Of a DNA stretch of 64,000 nucleotides, positions 3,139 through 29,700 are shown in pieces. The DNA is from Sanghuangporus weigelae (Eukaryota; Basidiomycota; Agaricomycetes; Hymenochaetales; Hymenochaetaceae): NCBI GenBank assembly GCA_033182465.1, contig CP137330.1, positions 496,001 through 560,000 on the forward strand, in the 5' to 3' direction. Both the position numbers and the translations under genes were made by a program. The notes under the pieces were generated by a model, which searched no databases, was not told the origin of the DNA, and was given only the letters and a program-made list of their open reading frames with translations. Every line of letters starts with the position of its first letter. The first letter of the stretch is position 1.

Positions 3139-6045
3139 ATGAGTCCCACTCCTAGAAAACTCGCAGTTCACAAGACTGCGGTTTGCAAGACTGCAGTTCG
3201 CAAGACTGTGGCTAGTAAGACTGCTGGGACGAAGCAGGCATCTGCCATTACAAGAAACTCCTCTCCCAAAAAAGCAGCAACGGTCCTGGAGCCCCAGCGA
3301 GCAAATGGCCCTCATTCGAACTCTCAAAATGCAGATGTCATTGCTGAAGGACTACGGAAATGAGGCCGGCCAAGGAAGGCAGAGCGGCCTGCTGTCAACA
3401 AGAATGGTGTTAAAGAGATGGTAGTACTGATAGTCTTGTCTTCTGGTATTGCACTCATACTTCGTAACAGAATAACATGGAAGCGGAGCCCACCACGACA
3501 AAAGCAAGGGGCCGGAGAGCTGCTGACGAGGACCTGACGTATCAATATGAAGAGCCCTATGATGAAGAACCATCACAACTTGATATTACCCGAATGGCTA
3601 ATGACGATCTGGGTCAAGAGTCAGATACCAACAGAGTTGGTACTAGCGATCCTTGGGACTTTGATAATCCGTTGCTTGCAGCCGGTGCATAGACCATTAT
3701 AGGAGTTTGTCAGTCTCTAATGATTTAATAGACTATGCTGACAATTTGGACCAAGAGTATAGATGCGACTCTTCGGTTGTATCTTACGTGCATTTCATGG
3801 AAAATCTCGAACGTGAAAAAGAGGAGCAGCAAGCTCCTAAAGAAACGCGATCAACACTTGTCATTCTGGTTGACGATGGGCGGGCTTTGCGCAAAATGAA
3901 CGTCGAACCTCAACACAGCATAATCGATGTGCGTCAGAACGTGGCAAGTATTCTTCAGTGCTATCCCACCTCGGTTACACTAGGCTACACCGGTCCGTGG
4001 TTTAAGAAGATTGGAACGAAGATTCAACCACGGTATCTCGAATCCGATGTAGATCTTGATGAGCTTGTGCAAGGGTTCAAGAAGTATCTTGAGGAGCTGA
4101 AGAAAAAGCGCAAGGTCGATAGTGCAGGCGAAATTGTGCTTATGAACATGAACGATGAACGGGTAAATGTGATCGTTTGCCTTTCTCTCTTTCACGTGTT
4201 GATGCGCGAATTCTGTTCCATTTAGAAGGGTTCTAAACGCTCAGGAAGCGTACTTCAGAATGCGACCAAACCAACCAGTGCGGCGGAAGCAACGAAAGAT
4301 GACCTGAATGCAATGCTCGCGCCTCATATCAAGGAGATCAAGCAGAACCTACGGTGTAGCGCGCATCCGGAGGAAGTTTGTTATGTTCGTGCCGATGGCA
4401 CTCATATATATTATACAATGAAGAATTATTTTGATCATGCAAGGCTCCTAGTACGTGTCTTACTATCATCTATGTGATTCTGGAGGCTTCTGAGCTTTTG
4501 TAGCTAAGAGCCTGTTCGGGTGCAGTAACTCACGCAATCTCTATCTTGCTCTATCTCTATCTGGCACTTTGCAAGATAGAGATAGAGGTAAAGGATCATG
4601 TGTACCGAACAGTCTGCCTATTTCTGATGTGATGCACTGATGTGACATGATTGTTCCTGCCGAGACTTGTGTATTATATAATATACTTTATTACAAATCT
4701 ATTCACTGCAAAATGCCCCCTCCCTCGATGTCGACACTGAAGAAGAACAATCCAATGCCTCGATGACCAGCTCAAAAGCAGTGTTCTTCAATCCGGACTC
4801 CGACTGCAGACCGGCTTCCCTTGCCTTCTTGAGCATGTTAAGGAGGATGGTCTCTTGGTGGCTGTTCCATGAACAGGGAGTGGACATCACGTAGTCACCG
4901 ATCGTCAAGCGAGTCACCTCGGAGTCGTCGTTGGTCGTAGATCAGTCAATTGACAACAGCCGTTGATGGAGGGAGAGGGAGAGAGATAGTATGGAGAGGG
5001 GAAAGGCATTGCAGAGGCCATGCCAAGAGATTGAGATTGCATGAACGAGATACAGGTCAGACCTGTATCTCGGCCGTGACAAGTTTTGGCAGGGAGATAG
5101 AGGTTACAGATAGAGATAGCGAGTCGAGATAGAGGCAGCCGAACAACTCATGAGATAGAGATTATCAATCTCTATCTCACGAGATCGTGATCTCTTTTTT
5201 TGGCGCGCGCTATCTCGCGAGTTACTGCACCCAAACAGGCTCTAAGTAAAGCTCCGGGCGTGACAGCTTTGGAGGTTCCCAGGCAGCTGAACTTGCTCGA
5301 CTACCACAAATCAAAGCGAACTGTGCAGACCACCTTAGGTTCAACCGCCATAGACATGCAGCAGGGGCTTACAAACCAAGCTGGCGCTGGTCAAGCACAA
5401 GCGGATGGGGATCCGCAGATCAAACCAGGTGTAGAAAATTCCAGTGCTGGAAGGACTCACCATGCATCACCATCACCCGCCTCCCGGCCTGCACGAGACA
5501 GGCCGAGGGACGATAGAAGGTACCGTGGATCATCGCGTGGCAGGAAGTGTCATCATGGCAGGAGCCGATCCATCAGAAAGAGAGGTCATACATGTCGCTT
5601 TCGATCCTCATCATCATCGGGGCGGGCGGACTCCGAAAGCTCCGCAGAAAAGGATTATCACGATCGCAGTTCGTTATCTGAGGATGACTACAGGCGTCAC
5701 AGATATCGGAACAGGCACTCTGCATCACGTCGTAACGGATATCATCGCAAAGGTCACCACAATAGAACTCGAGGCTCCCCATCCGCGAAGAATAAAATTC
5801 GTGATTATCCTTTGGTAGAGGTTTGGTTAAAGATGTGCGATGATCACATGGAACGAGGGCACGACAACATGAACTACTCAGTGCTGGCTGATGTTCTGAA
5901 ATGTAATGGATATCCGCGCATTAACCCGATTCTACTCAGGTTGACAACCGACGAATTGATTTCAATGGCATCACAGTCGGGTGTTCACATCACGCGTGGG
6001 CTTGCATCCGCCGTGCTTTTCTATGCCCAGGAGGACATTGGCTGA
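3139..6045 (+). CDS. Hypothetical basic protein with AT-hook-like motif, probably degenerating
   Basis: I do not recognise a named function. The N-terminus at 3139 is Lys/Thr rich with repeats of the type KTAVxK. Near 3350-3372 an AT-hook-like GRPRK follows an in-frame TGA (3361-3363), which a CGA codon would turn into a basic run. Downstream exons encode an acidic stretch (3477-3690), a segment with coiled-coil character (about 3710-4158), an intron 4159-4225, a Cys/His-containing block ending YYTMKNYFDHARLL (about 4452), then an intron that contains a Harbinger-like element, and an Arg/Ser-rich linker (about 5450-5790). The last 80 residues form a conserved-looking alpha-helical module with ISMASQSGVHITRGLASAVL, possibly SAM-like. 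The frame change near 3665-3705 is not resolved by a convincing intron. A paralogous fragment lies inverted at 13268-13725. The 300 bases after it hold only a possible AATAAA near 6063. Confidence 0.5.
4508..5242. mobile_element. PIF/Harbinger-like non-autonomous element in an intron
   Basis: The ends are inverted copies: GAGCCTGTTCGGGTGCAGTA on the left matches the reverse complement of the right end with one mismatch. The element is flanked by TAA on both sides (4505-4507, 5243-5245). A 3-bp TWA duplication with such ends is typical of PIF/Harbinger elements. Subterminal DNA is full of AGAGATAG-type repeats and a short hairpin near 5152-5190. A remnant coding stretch for a Myb/SANT-like domain lies inside (4699-4917), the accessory protein known from Harbinger elements. 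No DDE nuclease gene is present, so it could only be mobilised in trans. Confidence 0.8.
4699..4917 (-). pseudogene. Myb/SANT-like DNA-binding domain remnant of the Harbinger element
   Basis: About 72 residues are open. The core has Trp (SWNSHQETILLNML), a hydrophobic helix, then ESGLKNTAFELVIEAL, the pattern of Myb/SANT-like domains in which W...LL..L...G...G.K..A...V...L is conserved. In Harbinger elements such a protein helps the transposase enter the nucleus and bind DNA. Here it is a fragment without its own clear start or partner gene; its position inside the terminal inverted repeats is the main support. It could also be a chance match in a short open frame. Confidence 0.5.
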
Positions 6046-15061: not shown

Positions 15062-15667
15062 AGAGCTGCTGTGCAGGGAGATGCTGCGTATGAAAGACTA
15101 CCGTCGTGTGCGTACACTCGTGTTTCTCTGAGAGATGTTTCTGCGGCCCTGGCGGGCACACTCGATTTGGTTGCAGCAGGAGTGCATGATGGCCAAGCCA
15201 ACCTTGTTTGCCCTCACCCAGATATGATTTTGGGTGACATTTCAGCAGAGGATGGTCACCAGGGTGGTTTCAAGTCTGATTGGTAGATAGTACAAGTAAT
15301 GTAGCCACACCCAAGCCTAAGTCAGCTCAGCTACTGTCTTGGCTGAAAGCGCCTATGCTGCTGTCTTTTTAGCAGAAACAATCAGATTTTTTGATGTCCA
15401 AATGTGTGAGTTATGACAGATGCAATGAAGTAGGGGAGAGTTCTGTGAGCAGGAGTGACAAAAAACCACCCAGTTTCACTACTACAATCATGTCAGGGAG
15501 CCTTGAGGAGTTGCGTACAGGTGCCCACTGGGCTGGCCTGATTTATCAAACTTGAATCAGATTTTTCCGGATGATGTTGGGCAAGCTACGATTTTTACAC
15601 TGAATGGAGGGCATGACAAGGATTTAGCATTATGATGCTATCTTTTTAGTAGCGAAGTACATACTTA
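15062..15667. other. No gene seen
   Basis: A/T-rich spacer between Tc1 copy B and the foldback element. Short open frames only; I see no motif. Confidence 0.5.
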
Positions 15668-16751
15668 CAGCTAGTTGCAAAATTGTTGGCAATCACGTGA
15701 TTTCACCACTTTTCTCGCCATGAGAGCCTCAAAACACAGATAAAATCATATCTCACCCAAATCTCAACGGTTTCACATCATCTAAGTTGATAAATTCATC
15801 TTTTCGAAAGGGATTTCGTTTAGGAAAAACTATCAAGAAGATAGAGCAAAACATGACCCCAAAATGGCAAAAATCTCATTTTTTGCCTCTTCCTTACATG
15901 TGCATTTTTTTCTGTGATCCCTGCAGGTCCAGCACCTCTCCAAAGCTATCCAGAATGAAAATATGATTATAAAATGAATTTACAAACTGAGTTTGAGTTG
16001 AATTGTATACCAGAATGTGCTGCTTTGAGCCATGCCTGAATCACTCAAAACTCATCATTTCCCCCTAGCCTCCAAGGCTCCAGGAAAAATTCTTACAGGC
16101 CAAATTCATGCATGTAAATTCATTTTAGGTGTAATAGACTAGGTTTGTGCACTAGCTAGGGCCTCAGCATCCACTGGTGAGTTGGGAAGATGTTGTCTAA
16201 AATGATGCATACAACCAGAATCTCATGTTCAGGCCAGCTCACTAGTGGATGCTGAGGCCCTAGCTAGTGCACAAACCTAGTCTACTACACCTAAAATGAA
16301 TTTACATGCATTAATCTGGCCTGTAAGAATTTTTTCTGGAGCCTGGGAGGCTGGGGGGAAATGATGAGTTTTGAGTGATTCAGGCATGCCTCAAAGCAGC
16401 ACATTCTGGTACACAATTCAACTCAAACTCAGTTTGTAAATTCATTTTATAATTATATTATCATTCTGGATAGCTTTGGGGAGATGCTGGACCAGCAGGG
16501 ATCATAGAAAAAAATGCACATGTAAGGAAGAGGCAAAAAACGAGATTTTCGCCATTTTGGGGTCATGTTTTGCTCTATTTTCTCGGTAGTTTTTCCTAAA
16601 TGAAAGCCCTTTCGAAAAGATGAATTTAGCAACTTAGATGATGTGAAACCGTTGAGATTTGGGTGAGATATGATTTTATCTGTGTTTTGAGGCTCTCATA
16701 GTGAGAAAAGTGGTGAAATCACGTGATTGCCAACAATTTTGCAACTAGCTG
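15668..16751. mobile_element. Foldback (near-perfect palindromic) element, 514-bp arms
   Basis: The left arm 15668-16181 and right arm 16238-16751 are inverted copies with scattered mismatches, around a 56-base loop. The ends read CAGCTAGTTGCAAAATTG and are flanked by TA on both sides, as expected for a Tc1/mariner/pogo-type MITE with a TA duplication. There is no coding capacity. As RNA the arms would form a long double-stranded hairpin. An equal arm length on both sides argues for an intact unit. Confidence 0.85.
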
Positions 16752-16905
16752 TAAATCTCAGCAGCTGTCATCTCTGCAAGAATTCTTGCATTTAAGACAC
16801 TGTGACCATGGTAACGTTTATTTACCCATTGTGCCTGAGGACCAGTTAGACCACGTCAATATGCATCCATAAAGCGTGCAGATCGATCTGCAAATCTATG
16901 CATAG

Positions 16906-19900
16906 TTAGGTATATAGATCTACCTTGACAAAAGATGAAAAGACGTACTTTCTGAAGAGTTCAGTGGGAATAGAATCAAGGCTTTGTTTGATGTTTTCCT
17001 CCATTTCCTTTTCATTTGAAGTTCGAGGCAACATTCAATAGTAATATTTTGCTTTACCCCAGCACTGCTCAATAAAATTGAGTTCACAATGGAATTTTGG
17101 ATAGAAAATAACCTTATGCCCCCAGGATGCAATATACTCTTCAAGAGCTGTCTTCTGGTTGCGAAAATCAGGTTGGTTGAATAGAATGCGTCTGCAGCAG
17201 CAGTGTGCATTTTCGCTAGTGTCCTGGCATTTGAAGCCTTTGCATTGAGCCTTTTTGCCTGTAATGTTGATTCCACATTCCATAAGAATTTGAGCCATGC
17301 CTTTAAATTCACCGGGGTAGGTAGGATGGTCATTGGAGTAATAGAGGGGCTGGGAAGTGCCATCGGAAAGCTGTCCTGGTCGCATTAGATTTTTTGGTGC
17401 TCACTCGCCTTTCCAGCCTTGACTCTTTGGCATATAATATGCAGAAAGAGCATCTTCTGCATGTTTTGTATGCATGGTTGCATTATCAAAAGCAAAAAGT
17501 CCTTCACAGCCTGGGAAAGATTCTTCAAAAATGTCGACTGCATTTTTGACCTGCTTCATAATGTCTTCATGTCCAAAATACCCCTCTCAGTTCTTGCCAG
17601 CTTTGAACACAACTTGTGCATTGCATGTACTAGACAGAAAGATGAGTGCTTATATTATTATACAGATCTGAGGAATAACTTACTCATCCGGAGATTTCAG
17701 CCATCCAGCTTCAGGAGTGTAGAAGTCGGAGATCATAATAGATGTGCCCTCACCCTTAGGTTTTGGAGTTGCCATCTCTGTAGAATGGGCCCATCGTAAC
17801 TCTCGCTGATCATTTGCATAGAAAGTCGACTCATCATAAGTGACAAGAATGATGCGGCGGGTCTGGTCAGTTGCATTCTCACCGGATGGAAAGCGCATTG
17901 CATTGGGTTCCAAAGCCATCCGTTTCTCCAGTTCAGCCCAGAGAGGCAGGAATATGTGCTGCCAGTATGTCACAACATCCTCTCTCTCATGCCCATCAAC
18001 ATACATTCCTCTTTTTGTTTTCCCATAGCGATATCCCATAGCATTGAGCCATGTCTGTGCGGTACGCAGAGAGACAGACTTGGTGCGTCCGAGACGAGCA
18101 AGTACATCTGACTGGTTTAGATAGGCTTGGACATCCCGGGGTGACAAGTACTTTTTGTTAAGGCTTTGCAGGTGAGCGTGAATTTCAGACTGGAAGTCTT
18201 CATCACGAATAATTGATTTCTTCCAGACTCCATACAGATTGACCAGTAAGTATTGATGGTCTTGAATGTGCCGCCGAGTCCAGAGCTTGATGTTTCGAGT
18301 CAGATGTGTACCTCGACCTGCCACCGTAGCTGCTGCAAACAGAGCCGCCTCATCCCACCCAAACTCACTGTACATCACGTAGGTTCGAAGAAAGACGAGC
18401 ATGGCCGTTACACGGCCACGAAGCAATAAATCAAGTGTTTGATCACCGGAAATGCAGCCCAGCCGCCAGATAGCCTCCAGAAGTTCAGGTTCATCTCGCT
18501 TCGGAGCACGGAATTTGGTGAGTCTTTCATCCAAATATCTTGTATTTTGTAAGACATGAGTACGAGGTGGAAGAGCACTGACGCTGGTCCCACCAGGCTG
18601 TCGGTGCTGCGTGTCACGTTGCACGGGTGCTTCTGTACCCATGGCCTGGTGTCCATCGATCTCGTCCTGCTCTTCCTCCTCTTTCTCCTCCTCCTCCTCC
18701 TCTTCTCAAAACATGGTGCATCCCTGGCCCGAACACTGTACCTGACCTGACTGCTGTTCGAAAAGATAGTTCGCAGCCATCTTGTCCTCGAGTTGATCGA
18801 AATTGTTCCTGTGGGAGTTTGGGTCGAAGACGCAAGATGTCTTTTTGAGGTTAGCAATAGCATTGTTGCGAGGAAGCCCCTCGCATTGTATATGCTCTGG
18901 AATCGGTGCGCCCTGCTGATGCGAGACCGAGGTGAGTTTTTCAGCCCACATCGTGTTTATAGGTCTCTCTGCTGACTTGTCTTCCAATTCGGGAGCTTCT
19001 GGGGTAGCGAATGCGTGTCGCTAGATGGTTGTGCCAGTCGACTGGACAGCCGCGTTGACTCTGTAAATGAGGATATCAGGACCGTGTAGTGACTTTTCGA
19101 GGTTAGCAATAGTGTTGTTGCAAGGGAGCATCGTGCGCTGAATATGCTCTGAAATTGGTGCACATGCGTGTTGCTCGCTAGGGATACCAAGGATCACCCC
19201 GGCGCTGTTGGCGGCGCAAGTGGATATGGAGACATAAGGTGGCTTTTCAAGGTTAGCAATAGCATTGTTGCGAGGAAGCCCCTTGCATTGTATATGCTCT
19301 GGAATCGGTGTGCCTTTCGGTTGCTCAACCATGGTGAGTTTTTCAGCCCGCATCGCGTCTATAGGCCTCTCTGCTGACCTGTCCTCCAATTCGGGAGCTT
19401 CTGGGGTAGCAGATGCGTGTCGCTAGATGGTCATGCTGGTCGACTGAACGGCCGTGTCAACTCTGTTAACGGGGATGTCATGCAGAGACTTTTCGAGGTT
19501 AGCAATAGCATTGTTGCGAGGGAGCATCGCACGCTGAATATGCTCTGGAATCGGTGCGCCTTGCTCAATGAATTTGAAGGCTTGAATCTGAGCATGCAGG
19601 GCAGCCACTTGCTCTTCAGTAGGCGAAGAATCATCCCCACTACTCTTCCCTGTCGATCCATCCCGTTTTCCGTCAGATGCATCCTTGTTCACCATAGATG
19701 CCTTGAAAGGCATCATTCCATTCATTGACACTGTTTGTGACATTGATGGCATGAAACTTGTTGTCCTCTGTGGTGTAGATGATGTTGCTGGCTATGTATC
19801 AGGTTCAGCATGTTTGCGATTGAGGTCCTGGGCTTCATCAAGGTTCATCTGTAAGTGGACTTCTGTGCTCCATTTCAGTCTCTCCTTGTTGCCAATTGCA

Positions 19901-20442
19901 CTGGTACATGGTCGGTGATGGAATGCGGCATCCTCTGCCTGCACATCCTGCACAAGAAGCTCAATCAAGTTGTCTGCGCATAGCACCTGTTGCTCTGCCT
20001 GGTTCGAAGGTATGTGTTCTTTGAAGTGATCATCCTCACAGCAAACTATCATCTCCCCATCCAATGCAGGCCTTTTTGAAGTTTGGAGCTGGACCAGATG
20101 CTTGATGAACTGACGAATATCTGCATAACCTTTCCGCCGTAAGTCTGCTTCATTCTTCTTGGCTGCTTCCCGGTGATGTCAACGGGTACATGCACTGAGT
20201 CCAGTATAGATAGCAGGGCGATGACGTTCTTTCAGCTGCTTATACCATGCCTGAATTCCTTCCACCAGTTTACGAAGAAGATGTTTGGCAGCACCAGCAT
20301 TGATGAGACCAGCTTCTGGTACATCAAGGTCTGCCTCAGCATCACTGTCTATTTCATTCTGGCTGTTAATTGAAGCGGCTTCAATGGAGTGAATAGTCGT
20401 GTTTGAGGCAACTGAATCCGAGTCCGAAATCAGATCAAACAC
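16906..20442 (-). pseudogene. DDE transposase gene with SNF2-type QLQ segments in its N-terminal half, many stops
   Basis: A single reading frame can be followed from 20442 (MFDLISDSDSVASN) to TAA at 16906. It is broken by TGA at 20179, 18706, 17587, 17401 and 17035 and by TAG at 19792, 19423 and 19021, plus one probable 54-nt intron (donor GAG/GTAAGT near 17682). The C-terminal half is a DDE transposase of the type common in Agaricomycetes: VTYDESTFYA (about 17838-17809), LFAFDNATMH (about 17504), a Cys-rich insert (CKGFKC...CCCRR, about 17240-17185) and PKFHCELNFIEQCWG (about 17102-17058) supply Asp, Asp and Glu. The middle carries TEEQVAALHAQIQAFKFIEQ with PIPEHIQRAM, the QLQ signature of SNF2/STH1 remodelers, and later partial copies. 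An acidic run joins the two parts. The element's own termini were not found. Confidence 0.75.
18846..19650. repeat. Tandem duplication of about 400 bp carrying QLQ half-domains
   Basis: The order [GAGGTTAGCAATAGCATTGTTGCGAGG ... CCAATTCGGGAGCTTCTGGGGTAGC ... GTCGACTG] occurs twice (about 18846-19245 and 19246-19650). Each unit holds two segments for PIPEHIQ-like and LPRNNAIANLEK-like peptides, four in all. Both units contain the TAG in ATCTAGCGACACGC, so the duplication probably postdates that stop. Confidence 0.75.
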
Positions 20443-21098
20443 CTTTCATACAGAAATAATGGTTAGATTCCTACTGCTAGAGGTGAAACATAGACTCACA
20501 GTCTTCTTCTCTTTTACAGACCTGAAGTTATTGCGCCTTGCCTTGCTTATGTTGGAGAGTCGGCCAATAGTTTGGTATCTGTGATGGCAGACCATGATTA
20601 ACAGTTCTTAGTAATACAAAATGTATTAGTAATGCTTTGTAATATCTATTTATGGAAAGTATTAGTAATAAGGACCCTGGCCAAAATTGGAGGGTAACTT
20701 TTGAAAAATCTGCCAGAGAGCACGAAAATGAATTCTAGGCCATTTTACACAAAAAAGGTTTTTTCTGAAATTCTGACAGCAAATTTTCATATTTTCAGAA
20801 AATAAAACCAACAAATTGTAGCTATCTATATTCCCTACAATTCAATGGTGACCAAATATGATTTTGAGGTTGTGTGTTGTCGGAATTTATGCATCAATGT
20901 GTGAGCTGGGAAAGGAAGGTAGGGTTAGGCACGTGTCGCGTCACACCCTGTCGAGTTTAACTTTCGCCTACCTTATCTATTGTTATATCTCACGCATGCC
21001 CAGCCTTACTTGCCCGCTGTGACTAACTACGTTACGCGACATGCACGTGATACGCGTGGCTCACTCTTTGACTTCCTATTATCTTCTTCCCTCCAATC
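20443..21098. other. AT-rich spacer, no gene seen
   Basis: Contains repeated ATTAGTAAT units (20610-20670). Its right end is the upstream region of the first Crinkler-like gene. No recognisable coding stretch. Confidence 0.5.
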
Positions 21099-24000
21099 AT
21101 GGCCACGGACGCGATGTCTTCAGATCCTTGCTATTCCGTCTGCTTTCTATCCCACCTTTTAGGAAATCCCGAAGCTAATTGCTTTCCTATCTCGCTGACA
21201 AGGAACGCGAAAGTCCGAGACCTGGCATTGAAAATTCGTGACGAACCGGATATCCGATCAGAATTAGAGACGAAGAAACTTTATCTCTTCAAGGTATAGC
21301 TCCTGGTTTATTAAGTGGTCGATAATATTGTCTCATTTATCCTTTTCTGCAGTGCGGAGAGGTGTCTACCGTTTCTGATGACAAAATTTATAATTCTGCT
21401 GTAGAATGGCTTTCCGGACATGCCACCGATGAGCTCTCAAGGATGCAATCAGTATCCCGTTTGGAAAAGTATTTCCCCGATGGACCTGCACCCGAGGAGG
21501 AGTACTTGATAGACGTGATTGCCGTTTCCGATCCAAGTACGTCCTTGTTCATCCGTTCATATTTTGTATTCGCCTAAAGGATCTTTCAGCTTTGCAAGCC
21601 CTTTTTCGGTCTAGTAATCCGGATAACCGGACGTTTACCGTTACCGAACCCACCCCACGAAAACCCAAAGAAGAAACTGAGGGATTAGTGGAGGAATTTT
21701 TGAGTAGATACGACACGAAGCTTAGGCGGTATCTCGCTGGACCACCTTGGAAGGACTTCTGGGAGGCCCCACCGGATGCCAGCAACAACATAGCACAATT
21801 CGTCAAAAGTCTCAAAATTCCTGATATCAGGGGTAATCCCGTACTACTCCTGCATAATCTAGGGAACGGTGTTGTTGATTCTAGCATCGTCGATAAGGTG
21901 TTCACCAGGACATCGAGGTCCGTCATGTTCAATTGATCTTCCTATTCATTTACTTATATCATCGTCTGATATAGTTTTCTGGTGAACACTTCGGGGTCTG
22001 GAAAGACCCGGCTGTTGTTTGAAGGCCTGACAAGACATTGGGGCTTCTATTTCACGACTCTTGCTGATTCCATTAACCACCACCTGGGATCTGAGGACAT
22101 TTCGCAGGCCATCGAAACACATATTCCCGGATCTAGAGGCTTTATTCCGAATCCGTGGACACTGGCTAAGGAGAACCAGCATCGTGCTTTTAACAACAAT
22201 CATTTGATCGCAGAACGTCGCGTCATCGAGATCCTTACAGCCCGGATTTGCTTCTTTAACTATTTCTTGCGGATGGCTCGAGAAGCGGCCCCTGACGGGC
22301 GTCGACAACTATAAGAAGCACTGGCTCTTTCTGCAGTTGTGTTCCGCTCACATTCTTGGAGGAGATGTATTTAAGAAATTGACGGAGACACTGATGGATG
22401 CCAGTGACGAATTTTTGCTGATCGAGAGGCTTGCGGCCCATGCACGCTTGACCGAACTGCAGACAGAATTCTCTCTGGGCAAGGACTTCTTTCTTGTTCT
22501 CGACGAGGCACAGGTAGCGATTGACCGATTGGAAAACAGTTTTTGTTCGCAGCAGAAACAAGCGATCAAGCGTCCCGTCTTAAGACCGATTATCAGGGCG
22601 TGGAAGATGGCCACAACCTTTCCAATAGTGATTTCGGGGACCAGTCTATCGATCAATGTCGTCAACGAAGTTGCATCTGCAGCGGTCATGAAGATCATGC
22701 CGTTCACCTTCGCAACAAGGACTGGTGCTTTTGATGATGAGGATGATCAACGCGAGTACATTTTGCGCTACATGCCCCGTCATTTTGCTAGGACCATCTC
22801 TGGAAAGGCATTTCTAAAACGAGCATGGAATTATGCTCGCGGAAGGTGCGTTGTCGTCTGTCCGTAGACTGATCAACCATTCAAAAGACTCCTTTAGGCA
22901 TCGTTTCACTGCTACGCTGGTGACTCAATTATTGAAATTGTCGTTTCAGTCACCGCATAGGATTCTAAACGCATTTATGGAGGCGTCGTGCGGGTTCGTC
23001 CCTTCCGACGCGCAGCACTTTGTCCATAAGGAGCAGGAAATTGTGAATCTCAAGGGAAACCTTGATCTTTTTGCACCGCTCGATTTCTCTAAGCTTTTTG
23101 ATGGTATGTTCACGCCGTGCATTCTCTTTGATTTGAGCTTATTCGTACTCGACAGGCCCTGTCCGGCTTCTGGATTTCAGCAACGTCCTGTATGCGTGGC
23201 TTCTACTGCGAAAGCCAATTGCATTAACCTCCAAAAGCAAAGACCTCGTAGAACTAGGCTTTGCTCGTTTCATTGACGTCCCAGGGGACAACGTTTACGT
23301 CGACGAGCCTATCGTCCTCTTCGCAGCAGCAAGTCAGTTTGGGAGCCGAGACTTTTCATTGGGCGATTATGTCAAGAGGCCACTGCTGGAAGGACCCGGT
23401 AGAGGCGAGCACTTCGAAGCATCCGTCGCGTATTATCTTGCTTGTGCGTTTGACGAGACGAGCAAGCTTTGCGACATCTTTGACTTCGGCGATGAAGTCC
23501 CAGAATGGGCTACACTACCCGCTGAACTAGTCTCTGTCACCTTGAAGGGCGAAGGAATAGAGGCCAATTGCTTCCACCTCCAAGATCTGATAGGTTCCAT
23601 GACGGCTATCGGAGTCCACCTTGATTCAGTGGAGGAGATGATGAAATGGCTCAAGAACCCATCGTCGTTGCTTTGCTTTCCAAATAAGACAATGGGTTTA
23701 GACATCTTCTTCTTCGTCCGCCTAGATGGGCGTCTTATCCTGCCTATACTCGTGCAATGCAAGTGGTCTACCGCAAATGTTTTAGACAAGATGACCCTGC
23801 AACGCGCAGTGTATAGCCTCGATCTCTCGCGGCTATTCAAACTATGGGTGCGATACCCCATCTCCGTTGATGTGACATTGCTGACTAGAACTTCCTTGGA
23901 TTGCAGATTCCTCCGATTGCTAAAGCCGATGCCGCAAGAAAATGCGCTTTGGATCTGTTCAAGCGTCTAAACGGACCGGATATTCTTAAAAAGCCAGATA

Positions 24001-26705: not shown

Positions 26706-29700
26706 CTATCGTCGTTTCTTGCCAGAAGATTGACTCTGCTTCTTGTCAGATGACGTAGATTGCTTTGCTGTAGACCGCTTCTTGCCGTAGCGTCCGGACC
26801 CTCCGGACCCTCCAGACGATGTCCGCAGTCTCTTACGTGACGCGCCCACACCATCACCCCCCATATTTCTGTCAATCCCGAGCGAGTTTGCTATCGCTTC
26901 CAAAATGCCTTCGTTGTCCACCACTTCAGCACATCTGTCCATGTCCAGTGTAGCGTAAAAGGGTGCTACAGAAGCCTCTGGAGTGACTGCAGGATATGAC
27001 GCAATAACCGACAATGCGAGTCCATCCTGGAGCCATTTATCTAGCTTTTTAAGAATATTTGGTCCGTTTAGACGCTTGAACAGATCCAAAGCACATGTTC
27101 TTGCAGCATCGGCTTTAGCATCCGACAATTTCTGCGATCCAAAGAAATCTAGTCAGCAATAACACATCAACGGAGATCTGGTATCGTACTCTTCGTTTGT
27201 AAAGCTGCGAGAGACGTAGGCTTGACACTGCACTTCGCAATTTCATACCGCCCAAAGAGCTTGCAGTGAGCCATTTGCATTGTACGAGTACAGGAAGGAT
27301 AAGACGCCCATCTAGGCGTACGAAAAGGAGGACGTCTGGACCCATTAATTTATCTGGAAAGCAAAGCAAAGACGACGGGTTTTTGAGCCATTTCATCATC
27401 TCCTCCACTGAATCGGCGTGGACTCCTATAGCCGTCGTGGAACCTATCAGATCTTGAAAGTGGAAGCGATTGGCCTCTATTCCTTTGCCCTTCAAGGTGA
27501 CAGAGACTAGTTCAGCGGGTAGTGTAGTCCATTCTGGGACTTCACCTCCGAAATTAAAGATGTCGCAAAGCTTGCTCGTCTCGTCAAACGCACAAGCAAG
27601 GTAATATGCGACAAATGCTTCGAAGTGTTCGCCTCTACCGGGTCCTTCCAGTAGTGGCCTCTTGACATAATCGCCCAATGAAAAGCCTTGGCTTCCAAAC
27701 TGACTTGCTGCTGCGAAGAGGACGATAGGCTCGTCGACGTAAGCGTCTTTCCCCCGGACGTCGATGAAACGAGCAAAACCTAGTTCTACGAGGTCTTTGC
27801 TTTTGGAGGTTAATGCAACTGGCTTTCGCAGTAGAAGCCACGCATACAGTACGTTGCTGAAATCCAGAAGCCGGACAGGGTCTGTAAAGCACGAATAAGC
27901 TTAATTTAAAAAGAAGGCGCGGTGCGAACATACCAGCAAAAAGCTTAGAGAAATCGAGCCGTGCAAAAGGACTAAGCTTTCTCTCGATATTCACGATTTC
28001 CTGCTCCTCATGGACAAAGTGCTGCGCGTCGGAAGGGACGAACCCGCACGACGCCTCCATAAATGCGTTTAGGATCCTGTGAGGTGACTGAAACGAAAAT
28101 TTCAATAATTGAGTCACCAGCGTAGCAGTGAAACGATGCCTAAAGGGGTCTTTTGAATGGTTGATCAGTCTAGGGACAGACGACAACGAACCTTCCACGA
28201 GCATAATTCCATGCTCGTTTAAGAAATGCCTTTCCAGAGATGGTCCTAGCAAAATGACGGGGCATGTAGCGCAAAATGTACTCGCGTTGATCATCCTCAT
28301 CATCAAAAGCACCGGTCCTTGTTGCGAAGGTGAACGGTTCGACCTTCATGACCGCTGAAGTCACAACTTCGTTGACGACATCGATCGACAGACCAGTCCC
28401 TGAAACGACTATTGGAAACTCCGTAGCGAGCTGCCATGACTTGATGATCGGTCTTAGAACTGGACGCTTGACCGCTTCCTTCTGTTCCGAGCAAAAACTC
28501 TCTTCCAACCTATCGAGTGCTACCTGAGCCTCATCAAGAACAAGAAAGAAGTCCTTGCCCAGGGAAAATTCTGCCTGCAGTTCAGTCAAGCGTGCATGGG
28601 CCGCAAGCTCCTCTTTCAGTAAAAATTCGTCACTGGCATCCATCAGTGTCTCCGTCAATTTCTTAAATACATCTTCTCCAAGAATGTGACCGGAACGCAG
28701 CTGCAGAAAGAGCCAGTGCTTCTTATAGTTGTCGACCAATCCGTCAGGGGCCGCTTCTCGAGCCATCCGCAAGAAATAATTAAAGAAGCTAATCCGGGCT
28801 GTAAGGATCTGGATGACGCGACGTTCCGCGATCAAATGATTGTTGTCAAAAGCAATATGCTGGTTTTCGTCAGCCAGTGTCCACGGATTCGGAATAAAGC
28901 CCCGAGATTTGGGAATATGTGTTTTGATGGCCTGCGAAATGTCCTCAGATCCCAGGTGGTGGTTAATGGAATCAGCAAGAGTCGTGAAATAGAAGCCCCA
29001 ATGTCTTGTCAGGCCTTCAAACAACAGCCGGGTCTTTCCGGACCCTGACGTGTTCACCAGATAACTATATCAGACGATGATATAAGTAAATGAATAGGAA
29101 AATCAATTGAACATGACAGACCTCGATGTCCTGGTGAACACCTCATCGACGATGCTAGAATCAACAACACCGTCTCCTAGATTATGCAGGAGTAATACGG
29201 GATTACCCCTGATATCAGGAATTTTGAGACTTTTGACGAATTGTGCTATGTCGTTGCTGGCATCCGGTGGGGCCTCCCAGAAGTCCTTCCATGGTGGTCC
29301 AGCGAGATACTGCCTAAGTTTCGTGTCGTATCTACTCAAAAATTTCTTCACTAATTCTTCAGTTTTTTCTTTAGGTTTTCGTGGAGTGGGTTCGATAACG
29401 GTAAACGTCTGGTTATCAGAAGTGCTAGGCCGGAGGTCCTTCAAAACTAAAGGTTCTTTAGGTAAACCAAGAATACGAATGGTTCATTAATAACGTACTA
29501 GAATCGGTCACCACAACCACATCTATCACATCCTTCTCTCCGGATGGAGGTCCGTTGGGAAAATAGTGCATCAAACTGTGCGCGCCTTGCATCCTTGCCG
29601 TCTTTGTCTTTCGGGGAATCCACTCTACAACAGAGCTGTAAAGATCTTCCGGAGCCGAGAATAGCTCACCGCACTGCAGGAAAAGGAAGGTGAGACAACA

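Follow-up and report, generated by a model that had tools for sequence, protein, structure and literature searches.

An SNF2-type QLQ domain, apparently of host origin, within the transposase of a mariner-fold DNA transposon of Sanghuangporus weigelae

How a domain characteristic of SNF2 chromatin remodelers came to lie inside a transposase, and whether it has been retained there for a function, is the question raised by a 64,000-nt stretch of Sanghuangporus weigelae DNA (assembly GCA_033182465.1, contig CP137330.1, positions 496,001–560,000 of the forward strand). This stretch is referred to below as the window, and coordinates are those of the window unless another locus is named. From its sequence, a decayed mariner-fold DNA transposon is recognized on the minus strand at ~16755–20975, and its putative transposase gene holds a QLQ domain for which the host's own SNF2 gene is almost certainly the source, judging from DNA likeness. 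It is considered moderately probable that the linker of this Sanghuangporus transposase was patched with host gene DNA and that the QLQ domain was then kept for a function, of which docking is the likeliest.

A preliminary description of the window had reported a QLQ signature in the same frame as a DDE transposase. Both parts were borne out. The signature matched the Pfam profile PF08880 with 35.3 bits (E 9e-9) against a gathering cut-off of 23.8, and the frame 20445–17680(−), which is 921 codons long and interrupted by just five in-frame stops, continues into the transposase open reading frame (ORF) at 17680–18705. In a PDB search BRG1 (SMARCA4) chains matched the QLQ segment at E ~0.005. 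The same description had counted four PIPEHIQ/LPRNNAIANLEK segments in two ~400-bp tandem units and taken them for an amplified QLQ. The four segments do share one frame (19554–19489, 19308–19243, 19158–19093, and 18906–18841), and the two units are 84% identical over 334 bp at an offset of ~400 bp. Only part of the domain is amplified: what repeats is its latter half together with the adjoining sequence (PIPEHIQ onward), and full QLQ is present once, not four times. The array at 18828–19557 was not listed by Tandem Repeats Finder. The features of this part are as follows.

19528..19620, minus strand: QLQ domain PF08880 (residues 58–88 of segment 19423–19791, minus strand)
19371..19627, minus strand: SNF2-derived unit 1, QLQ and the next stretch (SNF2 codons ~53–139)
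19216..19315, minus strand: SNF2-derived unit 2 (partial)
18950..19169, minus strand: SNF2-derived unit 3, with HAFATPEAPE tail
18834..18921, minus strand: SNF2-derived unit 4 (partial)
19230..19557, minus strand: first of the two ~400-bp tandem units, from DNA self-similarity
18828..19161, minus strand: second of the two ~400-bp tandem units, from DNA self-similarity to the first

The four window segments align with the host SNF2 gene at E-values of 2e-45 to 3e-16 (calculated for a small database of eight sequences), which excludes chance likeness. Across the transposon copies, pieces spanning SNF2 codons ~47–139 are 71–94% identical to host SNF2 DNA, and the longest identical runs measure 26–35 nt in the seven copies examined. 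The host gene (locus L008) and the SNF2 protein of S. baumii (P0034) have FTDEQVAALRAQIQAFRHIQRGAPIPEHIQAALLPRNNAIANLEKSLQGPDVPARIVDAAVKINGA in common. Pfam scans gave no SNF2, HSA or bromodomain match in the window pieces and no SNF2 ATPase, HSA or bromodomain among the scanned transposase proteins and ORFs; the true SNF2 protein P0034 shows all three, and P0005, an SNF2 fragment, shows HSA. Since SNF2 proteins regularly contain QLQ (P0034, P0005, and BRG1) and the domain was not found in the other transposases of the group, transfer from host to transposon is the indicated direction. A RAD23 UBA fragment was also considered at 18751–18807, and at 4307–4408 of copy L031, where it reads GAYFACNKDKMAAKYLFEQ. 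It was rejected, its PDB match reaching E 0.79 only, and no host source for this stretch emerged when the S. weigelae genome was searched at the protein and DNA levels.

A PF08880 search of the S. weigelae genome returned seven matches, namely the host SNF2 gene (C1:3675754) and six transposon loci. DDE regions at least 46% identical to that of the window were found at seven loci, the window included, and all seven carry SNF2-derived sequence (six with a QLQ match, and the 5′-truncated C8 copy L031 with one unit). The N-terminal transposase exon was found six times, which is a lower bound, in each case with QLQ no more than 500 bp away. The copies were assigned to branch A (the window and L031 on C8), branch B (L010, L011, L012, and L030, from C6, C7, and C2, with proteins P0001–P0003 and P0040) and branch C (L013 on C3). 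A HASATPEAPE tail is retained by branch A alone. The possibility of a nested or stray QLQ insertion was discarded on account of the same position of the domain across copies.

QLQ proteins of this kind were also found elsewhere: P0001, P0002 (S. vaninii), P0003 (S. baumii), P0004 (S. sanghuang), P0006, P0040 (S. weigelae). Their QLQ scores, together with those of L010 and L030, range from 33.9 to 42.6 bits, with P0040 at 39.7. QLQ lies within one protein with part of the transposase core in P0003 and P0006, and with the N-terminal transposase part in P0001 and P0002; in P0004 only QLQ and repeats were seen. P0040 shares 90% identity with copy L010 across 232 positions. A search with the read-through protein, in which only candidates with the most shared words and within certain lengths were scored, gave 32 matches, from which P0001, P0005, and P0034 were dropped as QLQ transposase or SNF2. 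Among the remaining 29 related transposases, whose named sources include Mycena, Phanerochaete, Ceratobasidium, Rhizoctonia, and Glomus, none had a QLQ match at E 0.01 and 20 had DDE_3. One of them, P0010, a DDE part whose contig equals that of P0001 in length, is likely to be the latter half of a QLQ gene, which leaves 28 fair tests. At least 490 residues precede the first catalytic motif in nine of the 29 (the motif was not found in eight), so the linker is likely covered in these nine. A profile of the N-terminal part of the QLQ family scored above threshold against P0011 (1.7e-6) and P0014 (0.0014) and against no other relative. Distant DDE relatives in the S. weigelae genome (C3:97k, C9:1.79M, C8:39-53k, and C2:943k) gave no QLQ match, and no relatives of P0001 were confirmed in viral contigs. 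Within the searches made, the QLQ transposase family appears confined to the genus Sanghuangporus. The capture of an SNF2 domain by a transposase, as first proposed, is thus upheld by host DNA identity, by six of six exons, by four Sanghuangporus species and by the 29 relatives with no QLQ. The two findings that would have spoken against it, a missing profile match or a separate QLQ insertion, are answered by the PF08880 match and by the shared position in copies.

The transposase of the window copy is broken by its five in-frame stops (TGA 20181, TAG 19794, TAG 19425, TAG 19023, and TGA 18708). The parts of the element are listed here with the feature that abuts it.

16755..20975, minus strand: DNA transposon copy, with the 5′ terminal inverted repeat at 20975 and DNA likeness to copy L031 from 16752
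20950..20975, minus strand: 5′ terminal inverted repeat, first letters TAAGGTAGGCG, from terminal repeat comparison
20104..20445, minus strand: N-terminal part of the transposase, interrupted by an in-frame TGA at 20181, 32% identical to the L010 N-terminal exon (E 1.7e-6)
17680..18705, minus strand: transposase ORF, the part before the DDE domain and the first catalytic Asp (TYDESTF)
17035..17586, minus strand: remaining DDE domain in two shifted ORFs, 17401–17586 (DNATMH) and 17035–17400
15665..16754, no strand: fold-back element directly next to the transposon, its 521-nt arms 95% complementary

The ORF at 17035–17400(−) has a weak DDE_3 match (E 0.0014) which is below the cut-off. No 3′ terminal repeat of the window copy was found, and the fold-back element cuts the left side of the copy. 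The terminal 164 bp of L031 aligned with the DNA left of the fold-back with a score of 32, no better than shuffled sequence (best of 200 shuffles, 45). The fold-back (15665–16754) was perhaps inserted into the 3′ part of the transposon. A 19-nt inverted repeat shared by 20891–20909 and a fold-back arm was rejected as the transposon end; it is internal, as the end lies at 20975.

The 5′ end type of window position 20975 also occurs at L010 3021, L011 3091, L012 6825, and L030 9880, and the opposite end type at L031 2135, so that terminal repeats are present at six of the seven copies. The 5′ repeat of the window and the opposite-end repeat of L031 agree at 36 of their first 45 bases. Genome-wide, the terminal repeat pattern was found at 126 sites compared with one for the reversed control; each repeat begins with TA, which was part of the searched pattern; Tc1/mariner elements have a TA target duplication. 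Among the first 100 of these sites, 78 form 39 facing pairs 596–645 bp apart, as is expected of small non-autonomous elements, of which there are at least 39. Their shared ends suggest that the QLQ transposase may have moved them. The family was mobile, because paired terminal repeats occur across the genome. The branch B element L030 seems to span ~20.6 kb (C6:27735–48379), swollen by inserted repeats. Beside the QLQ transposon, L010 2338–3045(−) holds fragments of a second transposase (DDE_1), with DNA likeness in the C7 and C2 copies, and L010 has another end repeat at 1480.

With regard to class, the top fold match for a relative is the SETMAR transposase domain, that is, a mariner-type DDE fold. 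Tc1/mariner transposases have a short spacing between the second Asp and the third acidic residue, of the DD34E/DD34D type. This spacing was not found in the relatives; it is 135–160 residues in the 10 of 29 with all three motifs, one of which has Asn at the first site. The terminal inverted repeats of the group are present. In Pack-TYPE elements a host fragment replaces the transposase gene, and here QLQ sits in the transposase frame.

SNF2 is not the only host gene represented in the linker. After QLQ, branch B carries RPB1-type repeats (L010 4341–4859; L030 7876–8799 and 2738–3850; P0001–P0003 and P0040) which match S. pombe Rpb1 1419–1458 at E 1.6e-6, as well as RPB1 proteins from the collection searched and the RPB1 locus of the host. 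The repeated segment corresponds to the stretch just before the C-terminal domain (CTD) of RNA polymerase II (Pol II). The motif was counted seven times in P0001, four times in P0002, four times in P0040, and at least once in P0003. Runs identical to host RPB1 measure 34, 34, 19, and 30 nt in L010, L011, L012, and L030, respectively; in the window, L031, and L013 they reach just 9–10 nt, the chance level, and branches A and C are therefore taken to be without this piece. Both the SNF2 and the RPB1 pieces are sense and in frame. A third stretch, at C1:3865411, is 80% identical to L030 over 115 nt and 78–79% identical to L010, L011, and L012 (L062 1507–1620(−) against L010 4760–4873); the window, L031, and L013 show no match of this kind. 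The locus belongs to a gene of the opposite strand, the next ORF of which has a Pfam Cyclin match (27.4 bits, cut-off 21), the transposon match lying in the upstream ORF. On this alignment, the branch B peptide SEIGEACISSSGG appears to be cyclin-gene DNA read in antisense, and entry of transposon DNA into the cyclin gene may also be conceived.

Constraint on the QLQ domain was evident between branches. Over 47 codons, the window and L010 differ with a nonsynonymous divergence (dN) of 0.137 and a synonymous divergence (dS) of 1.14, with fewer amino-acid than silent changes (p 1.7e-7), and for the window and L030 the corresponding p is 2.9e-6; counts were rounded for these tests and the codons are few. 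By these measures the QLQ protein is constrained between branches A and B, and it has probably been kept by selection. The dS from each branch to host SNF2 is 0.36–0.69, about half of that between A and B (1.14–1.51), which fits a place of host SNF2 near the root. Silent sites of the DDE region are saturated between A and B (dS 2.26 or not estimable).

In the simplest reading, ~280 bp of host SNF2 (QLQ and the next stretch) would have entered the transposase before the sub-branches parted. The acceptor site would be the linker between the N-terminal helical region and the helix-turn-helix (HTH)-DDE enzyme, and the route may have been DNA repair patching; patching at the DNA level is favored because host DNA and linker match regardless of sense. 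Branch B also carries the copies of pre-CTD RPB1 and a stretch equal to reversed cyclin-gene DNA, and branch A, to which the window belongs, and branch C, with the C3 copy, multiplied portions of the SNF2 piece. As the SNF2 and RPB1 pieces are sense and in frame and QLQ is constrained between branches, there is room for function. QLQ would then have been kept because it grips the SWI/SNF partner that normally holds the QLQ of SNF2, and the RPB1 neck peptide would perhaps grip a Pol II partner. RPB6, which presumably holds the RPB1 stretch found in the branch B linker, is the candidate. Thus docked, the transposase could remain close to open and transcribed chromatin, which might serve its expression or its choice of target. 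In BRG1, QLQ is reported to mediate protein interaction (PMC6862534), SMARCA4 and SSXT are joined in one solved chain (PDB 7vrb), and Rpb6 is described as contributing to the anchorage of the polymerase stalk (PMC8160253). Docking to SWI/SNF and to Pol II is put forward tentatively, and it is unlikely that the transposase is a recent build holding two docking modules, the SWI/SNF QLQ and the RPB1 neck, with which to sit on active chromatin.

Several observations count against the proposal of a QLQ captured once and kept for docking. The C3 copy, L013, yielded no end repeat. QLQ constraint between L010 and L030 is not significant (p 0.069). The silent divergence of QLQ is lower than that of DDE between L010 and L030 (p 2e-4) and marginally so between the window and L010 (p 0.048). 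Comparison with host SNF2, suggested at the outset for dating the capture, did give a DNA match and measurable distances, but one old capture is not proven, and with separate captures part of the measured constraint is that of the host gene. The youngest branch A pair, the window and L031, shows decay in its DDE region (dN 0.089, dS 0.13), and a functional copy would still have to be proven from the S. weigelae genome sequence. The AlphaFold model of P0001 has a mean predicted local distance difference test (pLDDT) score of 35.5, too poor for a folded QLQ to be recognized. Between L010 and L030 the antisense cyclin stretch has a dN of 0.214 and a dS of 0.48 (QLQ, 0.078 and 0.32), and mild conservation alone proves little, as this stretch shows. 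At least this one piece, being antisense, cannot act as a docking module taken from the donor, and the match lowers the odds for docking.

The chief rival to docking is that the linker takes any in-frame insert, so that repair patches expanded by slippage are neutral filler with no effect. The linker of the relatives is poorly predicted and presumably disordered, one patch runs antisense to the host gene that it matches, the number and boundaries of the pieces differ among copies, and the window and L031 copies are decaying. The filler reading is rendered rather doubtful by the QLQ residues kept while silent sites diverged between A and B, by the retention of QLQ beside every N-terminal exon found, and by the sense, in-frame state of the SNF2 and RPB1 pieces. 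The QLQ pieces could also have been kept alike by recurrent capture from host SNF2, or by gene conversion from it, a history compatible with the other readings. The place of host SNF2 between the branches and the reduced QLQ silent divergence of L010 and L030 point that way, but the piece has the same protein position in the copies, a slow host branch yields an equal star shape, and window and L030 show no difference in silent divergence between QLQ and DDE (p 0.34); such recapture or conversion is considered somewhat improbable.

Identity to essential host mRNAs could also act at the RNA level, making small-RNA silencing of the transposon costly to the host. The SNF2-identical runs in seven copies and the RPB1-identical runs in four branch B copies would suit this, and third positions in SNF2 codons 88–98 (PRNNAIANLEK; L008) match the host in 84 of 92 amino-acid-identical codons, compared with 187 of 267 outside. 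However, the units are not independent, the best-matching stretch differs by branch (6 of 10 inside in L010), and run lengths would not be extreme for such divergence, and we regard this mimicry as very unlikely. That the gene is an immobile host gene, a domesticated transposase fused to SNF2 pieces, is scarcely credible. Source records label such proteins SNF21_2, SNF21_3, and SNF21_5, but terminal repeats stand at six of seven copies and at 126 genome sites, decayed copies lie at several loci, and the transposase pieces scanned have no SNF2 ATPase match.

Elsewhere in the window, 22208–22867(+) and 28170–29057(−) form an inverted pair of ATPase-like genes, 85% identical over 195 residues and without a Pfam match; the copy at 28170–29057(−) carries the GSGKTRLLFEGL motif.

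It is not settled how transposases select chromatin, and the domains added to them are in many cases old and hard to trace to a source. In Sanghuangporus weigelae the donor genes, the acceptor gene, and the sub-branches are found together in one genome at readable divergence, and at least 39 small elements with the same terminal repeats constitute a record of past insertions. The SNF2, RPB1, and reversed cyclin patches offer a natural test of host DNA uptake and selective retention. A warning for annotation also follows, as parts of the transposase carry SNF21 names in source records.

Searches of open-licence papers turned up no report of a transposase that combines SNF2 and RPB1 pieces. SETMAR/Metnase, a single host gene with a SET domain, likewise joins a chromatin-protein domain to a mariner transposase, but the domain is not QLQ and is not spread by the element. 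In human CSB-PGBD3 an SNF2-family part is joined to a transposase and described as a chromatin tether through protein contacts; there a piggyBac element lies in a host gene and the host retains the fusion, whereas in Sanghuangporus the transposase of a mobile element holds the host piece (PMC3459987). Host gene fragments are also carried by maize Bs1, with pieces from three host genes, and by KIU with its Ulp1 domain, which is reported to be strongly conserved; the KIU domain is described as a separate coding gene of the element, unlike the in-frame pieces inside the Sanghuangporus transposase (PMC13317346). Pack-TYPE elements and fungal Helitrons carry host fragments too, and Pack-TYPE elements are described as non-autonomous, whereas the SNF2 and RPB1 pieces of Sanghuangporus lie inside a DDE transposase (PMC8903248, PMC4289320). 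A screen for fungal fusions of host and transposable element (TE) domains includes SNF2_N and UBA among the host domains and Tc1-Mariner DDE_1 among the TE domains with many candidates; its cases are mostly helicase-type TE domains in host proteins, and the accessible part of the paper mentions no QLQ or RPB1 in a transposase (PMC10799480). The model for docking is provided by the chromoviruses, in which an enzyme of a mobile element bears a chromatin-binding domain, although these are widespread retrotransposons with a chromodomain at the integrase C-terminus (PMC3605345). If true, docking by the Sanghuangporus transposase would be the DDE-transposon counterpart of the chromovirus chromodomain.
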